DNA from: Pseudomonadota bacterium
GTDB taxonomy: Bacteria > Pseudomonadota > Alphaproteobacteria > Acetobacterales > Acetobacteraceae
Length of the DNA stretch: 11,699 nt
Assembly: GCA_021841985.1 (NCBI GenBank)
Contig: JAKCCP010000329.1
Span: 1-11,699 of the forward strand
Direction: 5' to 3'
A program made the position numbers and the translations under genes. Position 1 is the first letter of the stretch, and each line of letters opens with the position of its first letter. Positions 1 to 10,738 of this stretch are shown in pieces. A model generated the notes under the pieces. It ran no database searches, was not told the DNA's origin, and worked only from the letters and a program-made list of their open reading frames with translations.

Positions 1-380
1 CGGGCTTGCGGTTCCAGGATGTGCAGTGCGCCGCTGCCAACCGAGAGATAGGTTCCGGGAGGAATGACATAGAGGTGGTTGGGCTCAAGCGGCATTCCCT
101 CCGCCGCTTGCCGAACGATCATCGAAGTGTGGCTGGCCAGCAGATCGACCATCATGCTTTTGTGGATCGGATCGAGATGCTGGACCAGGATGAGGGCCAG
201 GTGGTTGTCGGTTGGCAGCGCGTTCACCAGCTTCATGCACGCATCCAGGCCACCCGCCGAGGCCCCGATGCCGACCACCAGGAAGTCGTCAGGGCCGCGC
301 GGCCGCGCCGGCGCCGCCTGAGAGCGCCGGCTCACACGCGGCCGGGCTATTTTTCCCCGATGTGGACGACCTTCCGACAT
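1..380 (-). CDS. CheB-type methylesterase domain protein, N-terminal part (probable CheB/CheR-type sensor), cut by window edge
   Basis: Only the first 126 codons lie in the window; the reading frame stays open to the left edge. After a basic, Ala/Pro/Arg-rich leader of about 30 residues comes a CheB methylesterase fold: DDFLVVGIGASAGGL at 31-45 with the expected nucleophile Ser41 in GASAGG, then LILVQHLDP with catalytic-type His68, and HLYVIPPGTYLSV at 102-114. CheB domains deamidate or demethylate chemoreceptor glutamates. No receiver domain precedes this one, which is the arrangement of CheB/CheR/PAS-kinase fusion proteins rather than classical CheB; that extension is inferred because the rest is outside the window. 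ATG at 380 was chosen because an AGGGG ribosome-binding site lies about six bases upstream; a GTG at 335 is the alternative. It diverges from the Dps-receiver gene, with 385 bases between. Confidence 0.82.
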   Translation of the reverse strand, partial: MSEGRPHRGKIARPRVSRRSQAAPARPRGPDDFLVVGIGASAGGLDACMKLVNALPTDNHLALILVQHLDPIHKSMMVDLLASHTSMIVRQAAEGMPLEPNHLYVIPPGTYLSVGSGALHILEPQA

Positions 381-434: not shown

Positions 435-662
435 GACAATTTCAAGGCCGCGTTGATGCTGCCGCGAACCCACATGCGTGGCCACGAGAACTGCAAGCGG
501 GCCTAATCTGAGTATTTTCCGAGGCTGTTCGCGATGGCGTACCTCCGCTAGCGTACATTGATAGCAGGTTTCGCCGGTGCTGGCACGACAAACTTCGTCG
601 GTGCCGCCGGTGTCCGAGGCCCTCCGGGGTGGCCCTTCTTTGGGCGGTTCCTCCCTAGACTT

Positions 663-690
663 GAGGCCCTGGCGCGCGTGCCGGGGCCTC
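663..690. repeat. GC-rich hairpin in leader of the Dps-receiver gene
   Basis: GAGGCCC (663-669) pairs perfectly with GGGCCTC (684-690) around a 14-base loop. No T-run of terminator type follows. It may form in the 5' leader of the Dps-receiver transcript if the start of transcription lies upstream; its role is unknown. Confidence 0.35.
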
Positions 691-765
691 CCTTGTAGGG
701 ATCCGTGCCGGCCGTCCTTGTTGGTTAGGAACAGGGATCGAGCAGTTGCGATACGTGGAGATCCG

Positions 766-1833
766 ATGGTGCGAATGGCACACGGCGCCTCATCCGAGAG
801 CGCGCGGGCTGAAGCGTTCGGGCCGCGAGAGGTGCGGGCAGGATATGCGCTTTCGGGAAATATTCGCGCGCAGTCCCTCGATCTTCTGAACCGGCATCTC
901 GCGGCGGCGATCGATCTCCACGCCCAGATGAAACAGGCGCACTGGAACGTGCGCGGCGGTGGCTTCATCGTTATCCACCAATTATTTGACAAGATAGGTG
1001 TCGAAGTCACGGATTACTGTGATCTCCTCGCCCTGCGCGCCGAGGAACTCGGCGGTACTATCCAGGTCGCCGCGACCCCATCCTTCCTTCTCCCCTATAC
1101 GCTCGGGATCGCCAACGAGAGGGCGCATGCGCTCGCCGTCGCTGGGGCCCTGGCAACGTTTGGCAAATCCGTGCTCGCCGCCATCGCAGAAGCCGTGAAC
1201 TTCGGCGATGACGATACAGCCGAGCTGTTTGCCGAAATTCTGTGGAGCGTTGAGCAACAATTATGGCGGGTGCAATCGCAGCATTGCGCCGTGACGGCGC
1301 AGAGCGTCTATGCGCGGGCGCCGCCTCGCGACCGCGTTGACCGCGCCTGCGACCTGCGCGTCGCGGCGCGCGACGCCGGGGGGAAACGGCCCGAGCCGAG
1401 CGAGCGGAAAGTCAGCAGTGGCGCTGTCCATGCCGAGATCAAGCAGGTCAGGGCGCTGCGCGTTCTCCTGGCCGAAGATGACCGGTTGATGGCCATGCTG
1501 CTCACCGAGGTGCTGGAAGAGATCGGCCATGAGGTTTGCGCCATCGCGGCCACCGCGGCGGACGCGGTGAGCACTGCCTTGCGATGCAAGCCAGACCTAG
1601 TGATTGTCGATGCGCGACTGGGGGAGGGCAGCGGCATCGCGGCGATGGAGACGATACGTCGCATCCAGCCTGTTCCCCACTTGTTTATCAGCGGCGACAT
1701 TTCACGGGTCCGGGCGATGCGGCCCGACGCGGTGATGCTTGAAAAGCCGTTTCATGCCGCCGATCTCACTCATGCCGTGCAACGCGCTCTCGCCGCCGAT
1801 CATGCGCCGCCGGTCTCCGAGCGGCTGGGCTAG
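766..1833 (+). CDS. Dps/ferritin-like protein fused to a response-regulator receiver domain
   Basis: This 355-residue product has two parts. Residues ~35-175 are a Dps-type ferritin-like domain (LLNRHLAAAIDLHAQMKQAHW, then FIVIHQLFDK and the RAEELGG region). Dps proteins form 12-subunit shells that oxidise and store iron and can protect DNA. His59, His71, Asp75 and Asp86 match ferroxidase positions by spacing (12, 4, 11), but the glutamate expected four residues on is Leu90. Residues ~230-345 are a CheY-like receiver with acidic EDD (237-239), phospho-acceptor Asp282 in VIVDARL, Ser309 and Lys327 in EKPF. A basic, Pro-rich linker joins them. There is no stop, and no ATG in frame ahead of the receiver core, so this appears to be a true fusion. 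Start ATG 766 has GGAG five bases upstream. Its role may be stress or iron-linked signalling; the partner kinase is unknown. Confidence 0.88.
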   Translation: MVRMAHGASSESARAEAFGPREVRAGYALSGNIRAQSLDLLNRHLAAAIDLHAQMKQAHWNVRGGGFIVIHQLFDKIGVEVTDYCDLLALRAEELGGTIQVAATPSFLLPYTLGIANERAHALAVAGALATFGKSVLAAIAEAVNFGDDDTAELFAEILWSVEQQLWRVQSQHCAVTAQSVYARAPPRDRVDRACDLRVAARDAGGKRPEPSERKVSSGAVHAEIKQVRALRVLLAEDDRLMAMLLTEVLEEIGHEVCAIAATAADAVSTALRCKPDLVIVDARLGEGSGIAAMETIRRIQPVPHLFISGDISRVRAMRPDAVMLEKPFHAADLTHAVQRALAADHAPPVSERLG

Positions 1834-3890: not shown

Positions 3891-4967
3891 TCAGCCCTCT
3901 GGCGCGGCAAACAAATCGCGGCGGATGCGCGCATGCACGCCCTGGCGGCCATCGACCACCTGGGTCACCGCGAAATCCGCCGCGACGCTCATCAGCGAAT
4001 AGGCGTCATCGCGGCTCAGCCCGTATTGCTCGGTCAATAGCCGCAGCATCTCAAGGCTCGCGGCGCGCATGGCGCCGTCGAGATCCGCGTCGAATCCATG
4101 CGTGATCCAGTATCGCGGGGTTTCCAGGAGCGGCGAGGGAAACGTGAAATCGCGGCGCAGGAACACCTGGAACACGACGTCGAGCGAGGCCTCGATGGCG
4201 GTGCCGCTGATCTCACCATCGCCCTGGGAGATATGCGGATCGCCGATCGAGAACAGCGCGCCCGTGACCGCGACGGGATAATACATCCGCGCCCCGGCGC
4301 CGATCCGCCAGTTGTCGATATTGCCGCCATGCCGCCCGGGCGGGATGGTGCTCACCCGACCGCGCTCATCGGGCGCGACACCGGCGGTGCCGAGATGCGG
4401 GCGCACCGGCACCCGCACGCCCTTGAGCGCCGGCTGGCGGCAACACGAACGCGCTTCCATGATGCGGCCGGGGGTGGTGTATTTTTCGGGATAGTCATAG
4501 GCGAACACGGCCTCGGCGGTGAGCGCACGGCGGTCGAGGCGATAGATCGTCACCCGCTCTTTCGCGCCGAATTCCTCATAGAGATGCCCCCAATGCGCCG
4601 CCAGGTTGGAGCCATAGCGCAAGCGCGGCGTCATCGCGAGATAATGCACTTCCAGCATGTCGCCCGGTCGCGCGTCCTCGACAAAAATCGGCCCGGTCAT
4701 GATATGCACGCCGGGATGGCGGTCGGCTTCGGGAACGCCCTGGTAAAGTGCTGTGATCGGCCCGTCCATCAGCAGTTCCGGGGCGTCGCCGGCATGGTGG
4801 GTGATGGCCTCGGCCTGGACGAGATCGCCGCTCCGCACCCGCAAGACCGGCGCCAGTGCCGCATCGAAATAGCCCCAATGCACCGTTTCCGGGCTCGCCT
4901 TCAGGATATGCAGTGCCGCGGGGGCCGCGCGACGCTCCCGGACGAGATCTTCATGCAGCAATGTCAT
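3891..4967 (-). CDS. Acetamidase/formamidase family hydrolase
   Basis: This 358-residue protein has the FmdA/AmdA-family hallmarks in order: HWGYFDAALAPVL (30-42), THHAGDAPE, GPIFVEDARPGDMLEV (92-107), VRPHLGTAGVAP (188-199), IPPGRHGGNIDNW (208-220) and FSIGDPHISQGDGEISGTAI (239-258). Family members hydrolyse simple amides or formamides to ammonia and an acid, using a metal bound by conserved His/Asp residues of such motifs. No signal peptide is seen, so it acts in the cytoplasm. It is the last gene of the ECF-transporter operon, 27 bases after the T component stop, with AAGGA about 13 bases before the ATG. I infer that it processes the imported compound; the actual substrate is unknown. Length and motifs appear intact. 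Confidence 0.9.
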   Translation of the reverse strand: MTLLHEDLVRERRAAPAALHILKASPETVHWGYFDAALAPVLRVRSGDLVQAEAITHHAGDAPELLMDGPITALYQGVPEADRHPGVHIMTGPIFVEDARPGDMLEVHYLAMTPRLRYGSNLAAHWGHLYEEFGAKERVTIYRLDRRALTAEAVFAYDYPEKYTTPGRIMEARSCCRQPALKGVRVPVRPHLGTAGVAPDERGRVSTIPPGRHGGNIDNWRIGAGARMYYPVAVTGALFSIGDPHISQGDGEISGTAIEASLDVVFQVFLRRDFTFPSPLLETPRYWITHGFDADLDGAMRAASLEMLRLLTEQYGLSRDDAYSLMSVAADFAVTQVVDGRQGVHARIRRDLFAAPEG

Positions 4968-4994
4968 GTTGTGTGCGTTTTTCCTTGATACATT

Positions 4995-5819
4995 CTAGCT
5001 CTGCGCCATGACCGCGAAGCGGCCGCTCGCGATCGCGATACCCAAAAGCAGAATTGCCGCCGCCACGACCGCGAGCCGGATCAGCCCGACATGGAGCGGA
5101 TAGTGGAGATCGTGGCGGAACACCCGGCGCGGCGACACACCGAAGCCGCGCGCCTCCATCGAGAGCGCGGTGGAAAAGCCGCGGCGCAGCGAGCGGAAGA
5201 TCACCGGAATGGCCAGCAGGCGCAGCCCGCGCAAGCTCATCCTGCGATAGCGCACACCGCGAATATCGAGCGCGTAGCGGCGGGTCTGGCTTTCGTGCTG
5301 GACGATCGGCACGTAGATCAGCGCGAGAAACACCGCCCAGGCATATTTGTAGGGCGCGCGCAACTCCTGCACCATCGATTGCACGAGATCGCGCGGATGC
5401 GTCGTCCAGAGCACGAGGAGCGACGCGATCCCGATGACGCTGCCACGCGCCGCGATCTTGAAGCCATAGTTGAGGCCGTAGCGGGAATAGGCGAAGTCCT
5501 GGCCGAGGAGGGAGAGATGCGCGGTGTCATTGGCGAGCCCGAGCATCCCGCGCTGAAGATGGAACAGCACCGGTGGCAGCAGGATGAAGGGCACCCAGAG
5601 CGGGATCAGCACCGACCAGGGACGGAGAAATGTCCTGAGATCGACGCCGCTGAAGGGCGCGATCGCGAACAAACCCAGCAGCATCCAGAAGTTGTAATCG
5701 ACCGGCGCGCCAATGGCGAAAACGATCACGCCCGCGAGCGCGATCAGCTTGGTGAGCGGGTCGATCCGATGCAAGGGCGAATGGCCATCCTGGTAGCCGA
5801 GCACGAGATCCCGCGACAT
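4995..5819 (-). CDS. ecfT: ECF transporter transmembrane T component (EcfT/YkoC-like)
   Basis: EcfT is the coupling membrane protein of energy-coupling-factor importers; it joins the substrate-binding S component to the ATPase pair. The 274-residue product begins with the typical SPLHRIDPLTKLIALAG segment (14-30), has several hydrophobic spans (about 25-55, 67-87, 125-140, 160-175, 242-265), and carries the two conserved coupling-helix signatures: LDIRGV (184-189, Arg187) and MEARGFG (221-227, Arg224), which dock into the ATPases. Its ATG lies three bases after the stop of the ATPase gene, and the amidase follows 27 bases later, so it belongs to a single operon. Confidence 0.93.
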   Translation of the reverse strand: MSRDLVLGYQDGHSPLHRIDPLTKLIALAGVIVFAIGAPVDYNFWMLLGLFAIAPFSGVDLRTFLRPWSVLIPLWVPFILLPPVLFHLQRGMLGLANDTAHLSLLGQDFAYSRYGLNYGFKIAARGSVIGIASLLVLWTTHPRDLVQSMVQELRAPYKYAWAVFLALIYVPIVQHESQTRRYALDIRGVRYRRMSLRGLRLLAIPVIFRSLRRGFSTALSMEARGFGVSPRRVFRHDLHYPLHVGLIRLAVVAAAILLLGIAIASGRFAVMAQS

Positions 5820-5822
5820 CGC

Positions 5823-7553
5823 CTAGACCTTTCTGAGGGCGCGGTGGAGGGCGCGCAGTGGCGGCTCGGCGAGGCCGAGTGTGGCGAGATCGACAGCGCC
5901 GCCGAAAAACACCTCGCGGGGCGCATCGGCAACGATTTTTCCCTCCCGCAGCACCATGACCCGGGTCGCCATCCGATAGATCAGGTCCATGTCGTGGGTG
6001 ATGACGACAATGGTGGTGCCGGCGCGGTGCAGCGCCAGCATGTCTTGCTCGATGAGAACCCGGTTGCGTTCGTCCTGCCCATAGGTGGGTTCGTCGAGAA
6101 TCAAAAGCGAGGGCGAGAGCAGCACGGTCGCGCGCACGCCGAGCCGGCGCTTTTCGCCGCCGCTCAACTCATAGGGATGGCAGGCGGGATCGTCGATGCC
6201 GATCTCGCCGAGCAGGCGGGTAATTGCCGCGTCCGCGAGATCCGGGCGGCCATGGCGCAGCTCGGCGGCCACGCTCTCGTGCAGGAACTGATGCTCGGGA
6301 TACTGAAAGACATAGCCGATCGGTGTCTCGCCGCGCCCGACCTGACGGCCGCGCCGATAGCGATAGGGCACGCCCGCGACCGTGATGTGGCCGCTGCTCG
6401 GCACGATGGCCCCGGCCAGCGTCAGCGCGAGCGTCGATTTGCCCGAGCCGTTGAACCCAACGAGGGCGACGATCTCGTGGCGGCGGATGCGAAAATCGAG
6501 TTTGTGCAGCACCTCGCGGCGGCCAAAGGAAACGCCGAGCCCCGCCACTTCGATCAGCGCCGGGGCATCGCTCGGTGCGGTTGGGGGCGGTGGGAGAAAT
6601 TCGGGCGGCAGGGTGGGGGAAATGCCAGCGCGGTGAACCATCGCGATGGCTTCATCGAGAGAGAGCGGCGCCTCGGTCATCGCCGTCCCGAGCATGGCCT
6701 CGGCCCAGCGCAGAAAAAGCGGAATTTCGAGACCCTGCTCGCGCAACAACGCAACATCGCGCAGCACTTCGCGGATCGGCCCGTCGGCGAGGATGCGCCC
6801 CTCGGCGATGATGACGACGCGGGTGAAAAGGTCGGCGAAGCCGGCGAAATCATGCGCCGTCATCACCAGGGCGCTGCCTTCCCGCCGCGCCGTCTCGGCG
6901 ATCAGCGGCATGACCAGGGCGCTGCCCACGGGATCGAGATTGCTGAGCGGCTCGTCGAGGATCAGCACCTCCGGCCGCCGCGCCAGGGCGCAGGCGATGG
7001 CGACACGCTGTTTCTGCCCGCCCGAGAGGGTATAGACCAAGGCGTCGCGCATCTCCGCCATGCCGCAGCGCGCAATGGCCTCATCGGTGCGGGCCATGAT
7101 CTCGGACTGGGGCAAGCCAAAATTCTCGAGCGCGAAGGCGATCTCGTCTTCCACCGTGAGGCAGGTGATCTGGCTTTCCGGATCCTGCATGACGATGGCG
7201 ACCTTGGCGGAAAAATCGGCAAGGCTGGTCTCGACCCGATTGGTGTCGATCCCGTCGAGCCGCACCATCCCCCGCACCACGCCGCCGATGATGCGGGGGA
7301 TGAGGCCAGCCAGCAGCATCAGCAGCGTGCTCTTGCCGCCGCCGCTCGGGCCGAGGAGCAGGATACGCTCGCCAGCGCCGATCGAGAGATCAAGATCGCG
7401 GAGGATTGTTTTCTCACCTTCCGCGAACGCGAAATCAACCGCGCCGAGGCCGAGCCGCTCGCCATCCGCGCGCGCGGCCTTTCCCCGCTCCCCCTGCTCG
7501 GGCGTCTTCGCCGCGGCCGAAACGGGTGGGGCCAGTGCCGAGGCCGCTGACAC
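5823..7553 (-). CDS. ECF transporter double ATPase (two fused ABC domains, YkoD-like)
   Basis: This 576-residue protein carries two complete ABC ATPase domains in tandem and would replace the separate EcfA1/EcfA2 pair. Domain 1: Walker A GPSGGGKST (68-76), Q-loop VMQDPESQ, signature LSGGQ (176-180), Walker B LILDEPLSNLD (197-207) and switch His234. Domain 2: Walker A GFNGSGKST (366-374), Q-loop VFQYPEHQ, signature LSGGE (463-467), Walker B LILDEPTYGQD (484-494) and His520. A Pro-rich linker (~315-330) joins them. All catalytic residues are present. The two-domain layout and PTYGQD ending of domain 2 resemble YkoD of the YkoEDC hydroxymethylpyrimidine/thiamine system. The start is a GTG at 7553 inside the S-component frame; the first ~30 residues are low-complexity, and the true start could be further in. 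Confidence 0.93.
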   Translation of the reverse strand: MSAASALAPPVSAAAKTPEQGERGKAARADGERLGLGAVDFAFAEGEKTILRDLDLSIGAGERILLLGPSGGGKSTLLMLLAGLIPRIIGGVVRGMVRLDGIDTNRVETSLADFSAKVAIVMQDPESQITCLTVEDEIAFALENFGLPQSEIMARTDEAIARCGMAEMRDALVYTLSGGQKQRVAIACALARRPEVLILDEPLSNLDPVGSALVMPLIAETARREGSALVMTAHDFAGFADLFTRVVIIAEGRILADGPIREVLRDVALLREQGLEIPLFLRWAEAMLGTAMTEAPLSLDEAIAMVHRAGISPTLPPEFLPPPPTAPSDAPALIEVAGLGVSFGRREVLHKLDFRIRRHEIVALVGFNGSGKSTLALTLAGAIVPSSGHITVAGVPYRYRRGRQVGRGETPIGYVFQYPEHQFLHESVAAELRHGRPDLADAAITRLLGEIGIDDPACHPYELSGGEKRRLGVRATVLLSPSLLILDEPTYGQDERNRVLIEQDMLALHRAGTTIVVITHDMDLIYRMATRVMVLREGKIVADAPREVFFGGAVDLATLGLAEPPLRALHRALRKV

Positions 7554-8203
7554 CAGCGCGCCGCGCTCGTCTCGGCGCCAAGGGCCGTGCCACCGAGCCG
7601 GGCGGCGCGCGAGGCCACCCAGATCTGCTTGATCGCCCGGCTGCCCGACAGGAGCTTGTAGAGCTGGATTTGCCCGAGCGCGATCAGCGCCCCGGTGAGC
7701 AGGCTCGCCCCACCATAGGCCCAGAGATAGCCATAGAGCATCGAGCCGGCGAGCGGGGCGACGCCGAGATAGATATAGAAAATCCCATCCACCAGGAAAT
7801 GGCAGAGCCCGCCGATCAGCAGCCAGCGCCAGAAGTTCGTGCGGTATTCCGCCCAGAACAGCGTCGCGAACCAGATCAGCGGGCCACCGATGATATAGGC
7901 CTGCAGGGCGATGAAGCCGAACGGATCGCCGGTGATCAGCCGCATCGACGCCTGCACCAGCATGGCAACGACGAAGACCAGCCCGCTCTTGCGGATCGGA
8001 TAGCCAAGCGTGAGCAGAATATAGAGGATGGCAAGCAGGAACGCGGCGAAGAACAGGCCGATCGGCCCCATGCTCTGCGCCACGCTGTTGATCAGCGGCG
8101 AGCCGACCAACATATAGGCCCAGGCAACGACCCCCGTGATGACGCCGACGATCAGGTCAACGGCGCGGAAGGTCTTGATATCGTCGATCAAGTTTTTGAT
8201 CAT
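7319..8203 (-). CDS. ECF transporter S (substrate-binding) component, YkoE-like; C-terminus runs out of character
   Basis: The first ~200 residues form a hydrophobic membrane protein with about six spans. The GPIGLFFAAF, YPIRKSGLVF, ITGDPFGFIALQAYIIGG and LLIGGLCHFLVDGIFY segments recall YkoE, the S component of a hydroxymethylpyrimidine/thiamine importer. It binds the substrate and docks on EcfT and the ATPases encoded downstream. ATG 8203 has an AGGA site about ten bases upstream. The frame has no stop at the expected end: from about residue 216 (near 7555) to the TGA at 7319 it reads Arg/Ser-rich sequence that is simply the ATPase gene out of frame, an overlap of 235 bases. The genuine protein is probably ~215 residues. 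A frameshift, a sequence error or an S-ATPase fusion are alternatives. Substrate assignment is by resemblance only. Confidence 0.8.
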   Translation of the reverse strand: MIKNLIDDIKTFRAVDLIVGVITGVVAWAYMLVGSPLINSVAQSMGPIGLFFAAFLLAILYILLTLGYPIRKSGLVFVVAMLVQASMRLITGDPFGFIALQAYIIGGPLIWFATLFWAEYRTNFWRWLLIGGLCHFLVDGIFYIYLGVAPLAGSMLYGYLWAYGGASLLTGALIALGQIQLYKLLSGSRAIKQIWVASRAARLGGTALGAETSAARWCQRPRHWPHPFRPRRRRPSRGSGERPRARMASGSASARLISRSRKVRKQSSAILISRSALASVSCSSARAAAARARC

Positions 8204-8350
8204 TGATGATTTTCCTACAACGGCGCTGGTGCATGCATGGCGTACGGGCAACAAAGACACGCAAAACCGATGCCAGGTAAATTTCGCGGCAATTCGAGAG
8301 GTAGACGACGGACTTGCCTTGTATTTGATCGGGGGTGCGCGGCAATTGCA

Positions 8351-9097: not shown

Positions 9098-10738
9098 ATG
9101 ACCCATATCGACAATATCGAAAACCTAACCCATGAGGCCGTGCTGGACTCCGCCCATCTCGGCGATATCGAGGGCGCGCTCGGCACCATCAAGCGCGACG
9201 ATACCGCGCGACGGCGGACCTGGGGCGCGCGGATCGCGATGCTGGCGGCAGTCATCGGCCCCGGCCTCATCGTCATGGTGGGAGACAATGATGCCGGGGC
9301 CTATGCCACCTATACCCAGGCCGGGCAGACCTACGGTTCTTCGCTGCTCTGGACGCTCATCCTGCTGATCCCGGTGCTCTATGTCTGCCAGGAAATGGTG
9401 GCGCGCCTTGGCGCGGTCACCGGGGTTGGCCATGCGCGGCTGATTTTCGAGCGCTTCGGTAAGTTCTGGGGAGCGTTCAGCGTTATCGACCTCTTTCTGC
9501 TCAACGCCCTCACCATCGTCACGGAATTCATCGGCATCAGCCTGGCGATGGACTATTTCGGCCTGTCGAAAGCACTCGGCGTGGTGGTGGCAGCCGGGTT
9601 GACCATGGCCGCTGTCAGCACCGGCAGCTTCCGGCGCTTCGAACGGTTCGCGGTTCTGCTGTGCCTGGGCAGCCTCGTGGTCGTGCCGATCTTCCTCGCC
9701 GCGCACCCGGCGGTAGGCGACATGGCCCGTGATCTTGTGATACCCCGGCTGCCGCAGGGTAAGCTTTCCGACATCATGCTGCTCATCATCGGTATTGTCG
9801 GCACCACCGTCGCGCCCTGGCAACTGTTCTTCCAGCAGAGCTACGTGGTGGACAAGCGCCTGCGCCCGCGCCACATCGCCTATGAGCGCGGTGATATGGC
9901 GATCGGCGTGGTGTTTACGCAGATCGGCGCGATCTCGATGCTGGCCTTCGCCGCGGCCGCCTTCGCGGGCCGGCCGGAGTTCGGCAACTTCACCGATGCC
10001 GGCGGCGTGGCCGCCGGGCTCGCCAAGTATGTCGGCCGGTGGGCGGGCGACCTGTTCGCCATCGGCCTGATCGACGCGGCCCTGCTCGGCGCCGCCGCGG
10101 TCGGGCTGTCCACCTCCTATGCGCTCGGCGATGTGCTGTCGCTGCGCCACTCGCTGCACCGCAAGCCGACCGACGCGCTCGGCTTCTATGCGATCTACAG
10201 CGTGCTGATCGCGCTGTCCGCCGTGCTCGTGCTGATCCCAGGTGCACCGCTTGGACTGATCACGGAAGCCGTGCAGGTGCTGGCTGGCGTGCTGCTGCCC
10301 AGTGCGACGGTGTTCCTGCTGCTGCTGTGCAATGACCGCGCGGTGCTGGGCCCCTGGGTGAATGGCCGCTGGCAGAACCTCGTCACCGGGGTGATCGTCG
10401 CGCTGCTCGTCGTGCTGTCGCTCGTGCTGACGGCCGCCGTGGTGTTTCCTGACCTGACGGGTACGCAGATCCTCGGGATCATGGCCGGCGGCGCCGGGCT
10501 CGGCGTGCTCGCCTTTGGCGCGACGCGATTCCTCGGCAAGGACGAGGAAGAAAATCCGGCGCTCGCGGCGCTGGCCCGGGCGGATCGCGACACCTGGCGC
10601 ATGCCGCCGCTCCCCGAACTGGCGCCACTCCGCATGTCGCTGGCGAAGAAGGTCTGGCTGTCGGCACTCCGCGCCTATCTCATCGTCGCCTGTCTCGCGG
10701 TGGTCGTGCAGGTGGTGCTCATGGCCCTGCATGGATGA
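9098..10738 (+). CDS. NRAMP-superfamily divalent metal transporter with non-canonical metal-site motifs
   Basis: This 546-residue membrane protein has a soluble N-terminal tail of about 40 residues, then about eleven hydrophobic spans with the NRAMP/LeuT-fold order: GPGLIVMVGDNDAGAYATYT (54-73) as TM1, EMVARLGAVTGVGHARL, LFLLNALTIVTEFIGISLAM, and GIVGTTVAPWQLFFQQS (232-248) as TM6. NRAMP proteins are proton-coupled importers of Mn2+/Fe2+. Here the TM1 DPGN motif is DNDAG and the TM6 MPH motif is APW, so the metal-coordinating methionine is Ala239. Loss of this Met is described for the NRAMP-related magnesium transporter branch, so a different ion preference is likely but unproven. ATG 9098 was preferred over an upstream in-frame start at 8987, whose extra 37 residues are low-complexity and overlap the small ORF. 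The ribosome site is weak (GGAC). Confidence 0.9.
   Translation: MTHIDNIENLTHEAVLDSAHLGDIEGALGTIKRDDTARRRTWGARIAMLAAVIGPGLIVMVGDNDAGAYATYTQAGQTYGSSLLWTLILLIPVLYVCQEMVARLGAVTGVGHARLIFERFGKFWGAFSVIDLFLLNALTIVTEFIGISLAMDYFGLSKALGVVVAAGLTMAAVSTGSFRRFERFAVLLCLGSLVVVPIFLAAHPAVGDMARDLVIPRLPQGKLSDIMLLIIGIVGTTVAPWQLFFQQSYVVDKRLRPRHIAYERGDMAIGVVFTQIGAISMLAFAAAAFAGRPEFGNFTDAGGVAAGLAKYVGRWAGDLFAIGLIDAALLGAAAVGLSTSYALGDVLSLRHSLHRKPTDALGFYAIYSVLIALSAVLVLIPGAPLGLITEAVQVLAGVLLPSATVFLLLLCNDRAVLGPWVNGRWQNLVTGVIVALLVVLSLVLTAAVVFPDLTGTQILGIMAGGAGLGVLAFGATRFLGKDEEENPALAALARADRDTWRMPPLPELAPLRMSLAKKVWLSALRAYLIVACLAVVVQVVLMALHG

Follow-up and report, generated by a model that had tools for sequence, protein, structure and literature searches.

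A Dps-like ferritin domain fused to a PhyR-like receiver beside a divergent CheB-CheR hybrid kinase

The described systems closest to the protein analysed here are the Dps mini-ferritins on one side and, on the other, PhyR and the single-domain regulators SdrG and MrrA of the alphaproteobacterial stress network. One glutamate of the Dps ferroxidase site is proposed, in the passages available of PMC7762939, to bridge the two irons, and the same passages describe some Dps proteins as using unusual ferroxidase ligands. The 355-residue protein P0001, encoded in the window (the whole stretch of 11,699 nt that was analysed), is like the Dps mini-ferritins in its fold as judged by sequence, in a His-Trp motif and in four of the five ferroxidase ligand positions, but it differs from them by a C-terminal receiver, by a leucine (Leu90) in place of the glutamate and by a four-residue deletion, and at 111.5 bits it falls below the NCBIfam Dps equivalog cut-off of 114. 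Its receiver resembles that of PhyR: the PDB entry 4qic, named PhyR, matches with E 2.5e-11, although the best PDB matches, 2n9u and 4g97, are labelled only response regulators, and the best NCBIfam receiver model is the PhyR family. However, that match is limited to residues 221-345, scores 80.9 bits against a cut-off of 240 and includes no sigma-like domain, which sets the fusion protein apart from PhyR. The unfused relatives of the receiver are, like SdrG and MrrA, receivers without an output domain, and they share with these two a non-aromatic residue three positions before the conserved Lys, a position that we take to be the coupling Tyr/Phe position of other receivers; the window receiver differs by the fusion to Dps and by reading PHLFISGD instead of the FATGUY motif. 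The available passages of PMC5964349 describe MrrA as lacking one Y-T coupling residue. The features of the fusion gene are as follows.

766..1833, + strand: Dps-receiver fusion gene for P0001, 355 aa (open frame, Pfam domains; same frame in L001)
757..760, + strand: candidate ribosome-binding site GGAG, read from the sequence, 5 nt before the ATG at 766
880..1281, + strand: Dps/ferritin domain, residues 39-172 (PF00210; PDB Dps matches 3ge4, 3ak8 and 1dps)
1033..1035, + strand: codon of Leu90, which replaces the bridging ferroxidase Glu (alignments; role of the Glu from the passages of PMC7762939)
1282..1455, + strand: linker, residues 173-230, mostly predicted to be disordered (AlphaFold), with 12 K/R and 7 D/E
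1462..1782, + strand: receiver domain, residues 233-339 (PF00072; PDB matches including 4qic)
1609..1611, + strand: codon of the phospho-acceptor Asp282 (Asp in all 53 other family receivers)

The original prediction, that a single uninterrupted frame joins a Dps domain to a receiver, is borne out. The frame is free of stops throughout 766-1833, and the domain search with the full protein matched both Ferritin at residues 39-172 (E 1.5e-13; 51.3 bits against a PF00210 cut-off of 24.5) and Response_reg at residues 233-339 (E 2.6e-13). A sequencing artefact or missed stop is rejected, because locus L001, a separate record (MAG 'Proteobacteria bacterium isolate FK3.bin97', here genome G001) with 99.6% DNA identity to the window and 0 gaps over 7830 nt, has the same open frame, and because the linker of a second relative, P0002, aligns without gaps at 47 of 58 identical residues. 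The fusion is real. An internal start giving two separate products is likewise rejected, since codons 176-241 hold 0 in-frame start codons and a complete receiver therefore has no start near the beginning of that domain; a longer protein from GTG 577 is unlikely, as it would cross an RF00519 RNA at 625-703. An AlphaFold2 model of P0001 from an alignment of 49 sequences (mean pLDDT 81.5, pTM 0.51) places helices 31-61, 67-94, 118-145 and 149-173 in a four-helix Dps domain, in which 10-residue blocks average pLDDT 83-97 over residues 31-170. The receiver, with block means of 87-98 over residues 231-350, is joined at the Dps C-terminus through the long disordered linker, where pLDDT is mostly below 50 between residues 175 and 225. 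In this model the protein looks like two sound domains whose mutual orientation is free.

The same fusion is present in L001 at 98% identity, and P0002 is fused and 84% identical, its listed protein ending at 304 aa inside the receiver. A third relative, P0003 (88% identical), breaks off as listed within the linker, a single residue short of the receiver part; none of the 55 listed was a close solo receiver, such as would point to an unfused P0003 lineage, the best solo receivers reaching 65%. No other fused protein turned up in what was searched. Only P0001 and P0002 carry both domains among 52 proteins listed by a first protein search, in which scoring was limited to the 7997 candidates with the most shared words, and the same two were the only ones (2/33) in a second search that took its score from the Dps part and admitted long proteins. 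None of 12 plasmid records held a Dps-receiver fusion, L001 was the only fused case among 11 Dps loci, and searches of 199, 299, 250 and 200 genomes (overlapping sets, with at most 6-10 candidates scored per genome) found it only in G001 among the candidates scored. No characterised Dps-receiver protein appeared in the literature listings, in keeping with the original prediction, whose reader knew of none.

Whether relatives keep the two parts fused or encode them as two genes, the point on which the original prediction was to stand or fall, has a divided answer. L001 and P0002, the nearest relatives that have a receiver, are fused, which argues against an error, whereas five more distant loci have two separate genes, with Dps 46-63% and receiver 49-61% identical to the parts of the fusion, which indicates that the fusion is derived. 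In L002 the regulator begins at 691, directly after dps, whose last position is 690; in L004 (Telmatospirillum siberiense strain 26-4b1) 61 nt lie between them; and in L007 a small ORF lies between the two and overlaps both. On a plasmid of Methylocystis sp. MJC1 (NZ_CP107559.1), dps, a 63-aa ORF and a response regulator follow one another with 4-nt overlaps, and a CheB-CheR hybrid, 64% identical to that of L001, lies divergently upstream of dps. Gene order and orientation there are as in the window, but three overlapping genes stand where the window has one fused gene. The spacing is wider elsewhere, at about 3 kb in L003 and about 9 kb, on one contig, in the genome of L006. Sixteen distinct Dps loci (18 rows, two places being held twice) have no receiver of the same family within the stretch covered, several of these stretches being short or ending at a contig end. 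The pairing is therefore not general, and the fusion is a narrow, lineage-restricted, derived state within an existing gene module. L074, the fifth of the separate-gene loci, the locus L077 and a family of small ORFs bear on its history.

L074, 6095-6733, - strand: Dps-like protein with 4/5 ferroxidase ligands replaced and a 57-aa tail; 4-nt overlap with the response regulator
L077, 4170-4532, + strand: ORF before a response regulator with only an apparently Dps-like start (MQPTLDTPSENIR)
L067 9459-9650; L003 6455-6673; L005 6471-6689; L007 439-567: small ORF family, unnamed, with start codons chosen by us

The Dps of L074 is a 212-aa protein with a long tail, from a genome assigned to the family of G001, and the ORF of L077 is possibly a remnant of dps. 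Each of the four small ORFs begins at the end of dps and closes with a W-x-NEGGAG-like motif, and the four are mutually similar (0/500 shuffles in each of six pairs); the small protein P0108 has no NCBIfam match. In P0111 and P0127 the same kind of motif ends a longer Dps tail, which makes P0111 a possible intermediate towards the fusion and suggests a stepwise joining of dps, small ORF and regulator. The window linker and the P0111 tail have RAPPxDRxD at the same offset, with shuffle p values of 0.069 (P0001), 0.042 (P0002) and 0.005 (P0003) among 27 comparisons, and the unrelated-looking tail of P0123 scores p 0.039 with the P0001 linker; descent of the linker from a P0111-like tail is weakly supported. 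Comparison with the four small ORFs (p 0.51 to 0.86) gave no support to the proposal that the linker is itself a fused small ORF.

The phosphorylation site of the receiver is intact as first described, with an acidic pocket at E237-D238-D239, the acceptor D282, S309 and K327. In the alignment D238 and D282 are invariant in the 53 other receivers of the family, Ser/Thr occupies position 309 in 52 and Lys position 327 in 50, and position 239 is variable (D 22, E 22, N 9). The family signature is PH-x-F-x-S-G, together with the non-aromatic residue three before the Lys. Residues 304-311 on strand 4 (PHLFISGD) do not read as a FATGUY motif, with the letters that we assume for it. One receiver of the same family, at L022 1504-3354 (+ strand), opens a 617-aa frame that is still open at the end of the locus and that, further along, matches a histidine kinase at 34%.

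A candidate partner for the receiver is encoded upstream, in the opposite orientation.

3..380, - strand: N-terminus of a CheB-CheR-PAS-histidine kinase-receiver-receiver-LuxR hybrid, divergent from the fusion gene and whole in L001 (1468 aa)

The L001 hybrid contains CheB, CheR, PAS, HisKA and HATPase domains, two receiver stretches and a LuxR-type domain. Among 36 loci with a strong receiver match (tblastn E <1e-20), which include the window with the near-identical L001 and the near-identical pair L049 and L050, a hybrid counted at >=50% identity is divergent in 23, convergent in 1 and by this rule missing in 12, of which 4 hold a weaker kinase match. It occurs at 0/12 loci with a weaker receiver match (Fisher p 9e-5 against 23/36), a set of 14 loci less L010 and L079, where the match is the hybrid's own receiver. 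Fourteen loci had been dropped before the count: seven duplicate or shorter copies (L012, L013, L014, L068, L069, L070 and L073) and seven from G001 and G002 (L015-L021). Of the latter, L018 and L019 would count as weak and lack a hybrid, the hybrid itself accounts for L016 and L017, and the others have no receiver match at the threshold. Most loci carry a flank of about 1.5 kb, and misses may be under-counted. In the set of 11 Dps loci, a hybrid homologue lies near dps in L001, L004, L006, L009 and L010, its C-terminal part lies in L007, and none was seen in L002, L003, L005, L008 and L011. This linkage is the strongest context evidence that we have, and the divergent pairing makes the hybrid kinase the likely phospho-donor for the receiver.

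The gap between the two genes and the remainder of the window hold the following.

625..703, + strand: suhB/mmgR-type small RNA RF00519 (Rfam 44.1 bits, gathering score 41)
728..752, + strand: EcfG-like promoter candidate GGAAC-N16-CGAT with one mismatch (p 0.014 in the 62-nt gap, 0.083 in 200 nt)
3891-8260, - strand: FmdA-like amidase beside an ECF transporter with a CbiQ-like T component and a double ATPase in one protein
7319-8260, - strand: membrane S component of the ECF transporter, in our reading; no NCBIfam match
9101-10738, + strand: Nramp-family transporter reading GDNDAGAY

The RNA lies in the gap between the two genes and ends 62 nt before the ATG of the fusion. The promoter candidate is weak to moderate. 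A stress-sigma promoter as a general feature of dps fares poorly: in a scan of ten dps genes most did no better than chance, p falling below 0.05 only in L002 (0.01) and L008 (0.027), and the scan of L009 used a position that was not a start codon. Canonical Nramp members have DPGN where the window protein has GDNDAGAY, and its substrate may differ.

The original prediction overlooked two changes in the fused Dps, the replacement of the glutamate by Leu90 and the four missing residues. Leu90 is inferred to correspond to Glu-62 via a conserved motif. The other ligand positions of P0001 (His59, His71, Asp75 and Asp86) are kept, but with Leu90 in place of the Glu the inter-subunit ferroxidase centre appears incomplete. 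In an alignment of 22 Dps rows, from which L001 was excluded as a near-copy that has Leu90 too, position 90 is Glu in 19 rows and Leu in the other three, which make up the fusion lineage (the window, P0002 and P0003); the same three rows alone have the four-residue gap, after a Gly close past position 90. A second alignment of 26 rows, drawing on 19 of the 27 new proteins from the second protein search, has Glu in 22 and Leu in the three of the fusion lineage; the remaining row, L074, has Tyr and also departs from His59, His71 and Asp86. Loss of ferroxidase residues is thus, as far as L074 indicates, not unique to the fusion. The N-terminal tail of P0001 is not strongly positive (4 K/R, 3 D/E). 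These changes hint that the function of the Dps part has shifted towards signalling or DNA protection; of the suggestion that the fusion couples two-component signalling to DNA binding or iron storage, the iron-storage half is weakened by Leu90 across the fusion lineage.

Our preferred reading, to which we give about an even chance of being right, is a phospho-regulated Dps body with weakened ferroxidase activity that acts with the CheB-CheR hybrid kinase. What is shown is that the gene joins two co-directional neighbours, dps and a gene for a single-domain, PhyR-like receiver, inside a module with the divergent hybrid kinase. The Dps part would still build the 12-subunit cage, from which the receivers would project outwards on their disordered linkers. 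Asp282 would receive its phosphoryl group from the hybrid kinase or else from a general-stress kinase, and this may alter cage packing, DNA binding or the recruitment of partners. Iron oxidation would be weak or absent, leaving a cage that is mainly DNA-binding or scaffolding and whose state is set by phosphorylation.

The main rival to a phospho-switched cage is passenger decay, in which selection acts on the receiver and the Dps is a decaying passenger, serving at most for solubility or oligomerisation. The window and L001 differ at 30 places over 7830 nt, and 11 of these fall within the 1068 nt of the fusion gene (14%; binomial p 0.001), 8 of them nonsynonymous and 3 synonymous (sites 793:272). 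The Dps stem of the fusion clade is 0.75 changes per site long, single unfused end branches reaching 0.70. Fast change of the gene and the long stem would also fit decay, as would the lost bridging Glu and deleted residues of the fusion lineage, the loss of 4/5 ligands in the Dps partner of L074, and the L077 ORF, if its apparently Dps-like start is all that remains of a dps. However, the nonsynonymous to synonymous ratio is not significantly unlike that of the other genes (8:3 against 6:8, p 0.23), the other four ligands are retained, and between P0001 and P0002 the Dps part (128/144 identical) is no less conserved than the portion of the receiver that P0002 has (55/67), with 47/58 in the linker and no stops or gaps, so that no part looks free of constraint. 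We regard decay as a possible but rather unlikely explanation.

A phospho-controlled iron store, in which iron is still oxidised and kept in the cage and phosphorylation of the receiver tunes the process, is improbable. It could draw on the four retained ligands, on the unusual ligands of some Dps proteins (PMC7762939, in the passages available) and on the fusion being the only PF00210 gene seen in the MAG G001, but the residue lost is the one proposed in those passages to bridge the two irons, is Glu in 19/19 unfused Dps of the alignment and is gone across the fusion lineage. Mere translational convenience, by which the fusion fixes a 1:1 ratio or the co-location of already cooperating proteins without allostery, would suit the tandem or overlapping genes of relatives, the flexible linker and the low pTM of 0.51, and is set against nothing direct, only the ligand loss, which suggests more than co-location; we think it equally improbable.

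The preferred reading of a phospho-regulated Dps body extends, in its boldest and more doubtful form, to up to 12 receivers displayed around a ferroxidase-less shell, through which nucleoid packing or a stress scaffold would come under the direct control of the CheB-CheR hybrid kinase. If true, this would be kinase control of nucleoid packing or of a stress scaffold without a transcription step. As a Rosetta-stone fusion, the gene makes a physical link between Dps and a family of receivers that is often encoded next to a CheB-CheR hybrid kinase in the relatives sampled. The arrangements seen, from separate genes through a small ORF joined to Dps and overlapping genes with a dead ferroxidase to the full fusion, form a series that suggests how a Dps-receiver architecture can arise. 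The fusion makes testable the question of whether two-component phosphorylation may control the Dps cage itself, not the transcription of dps.
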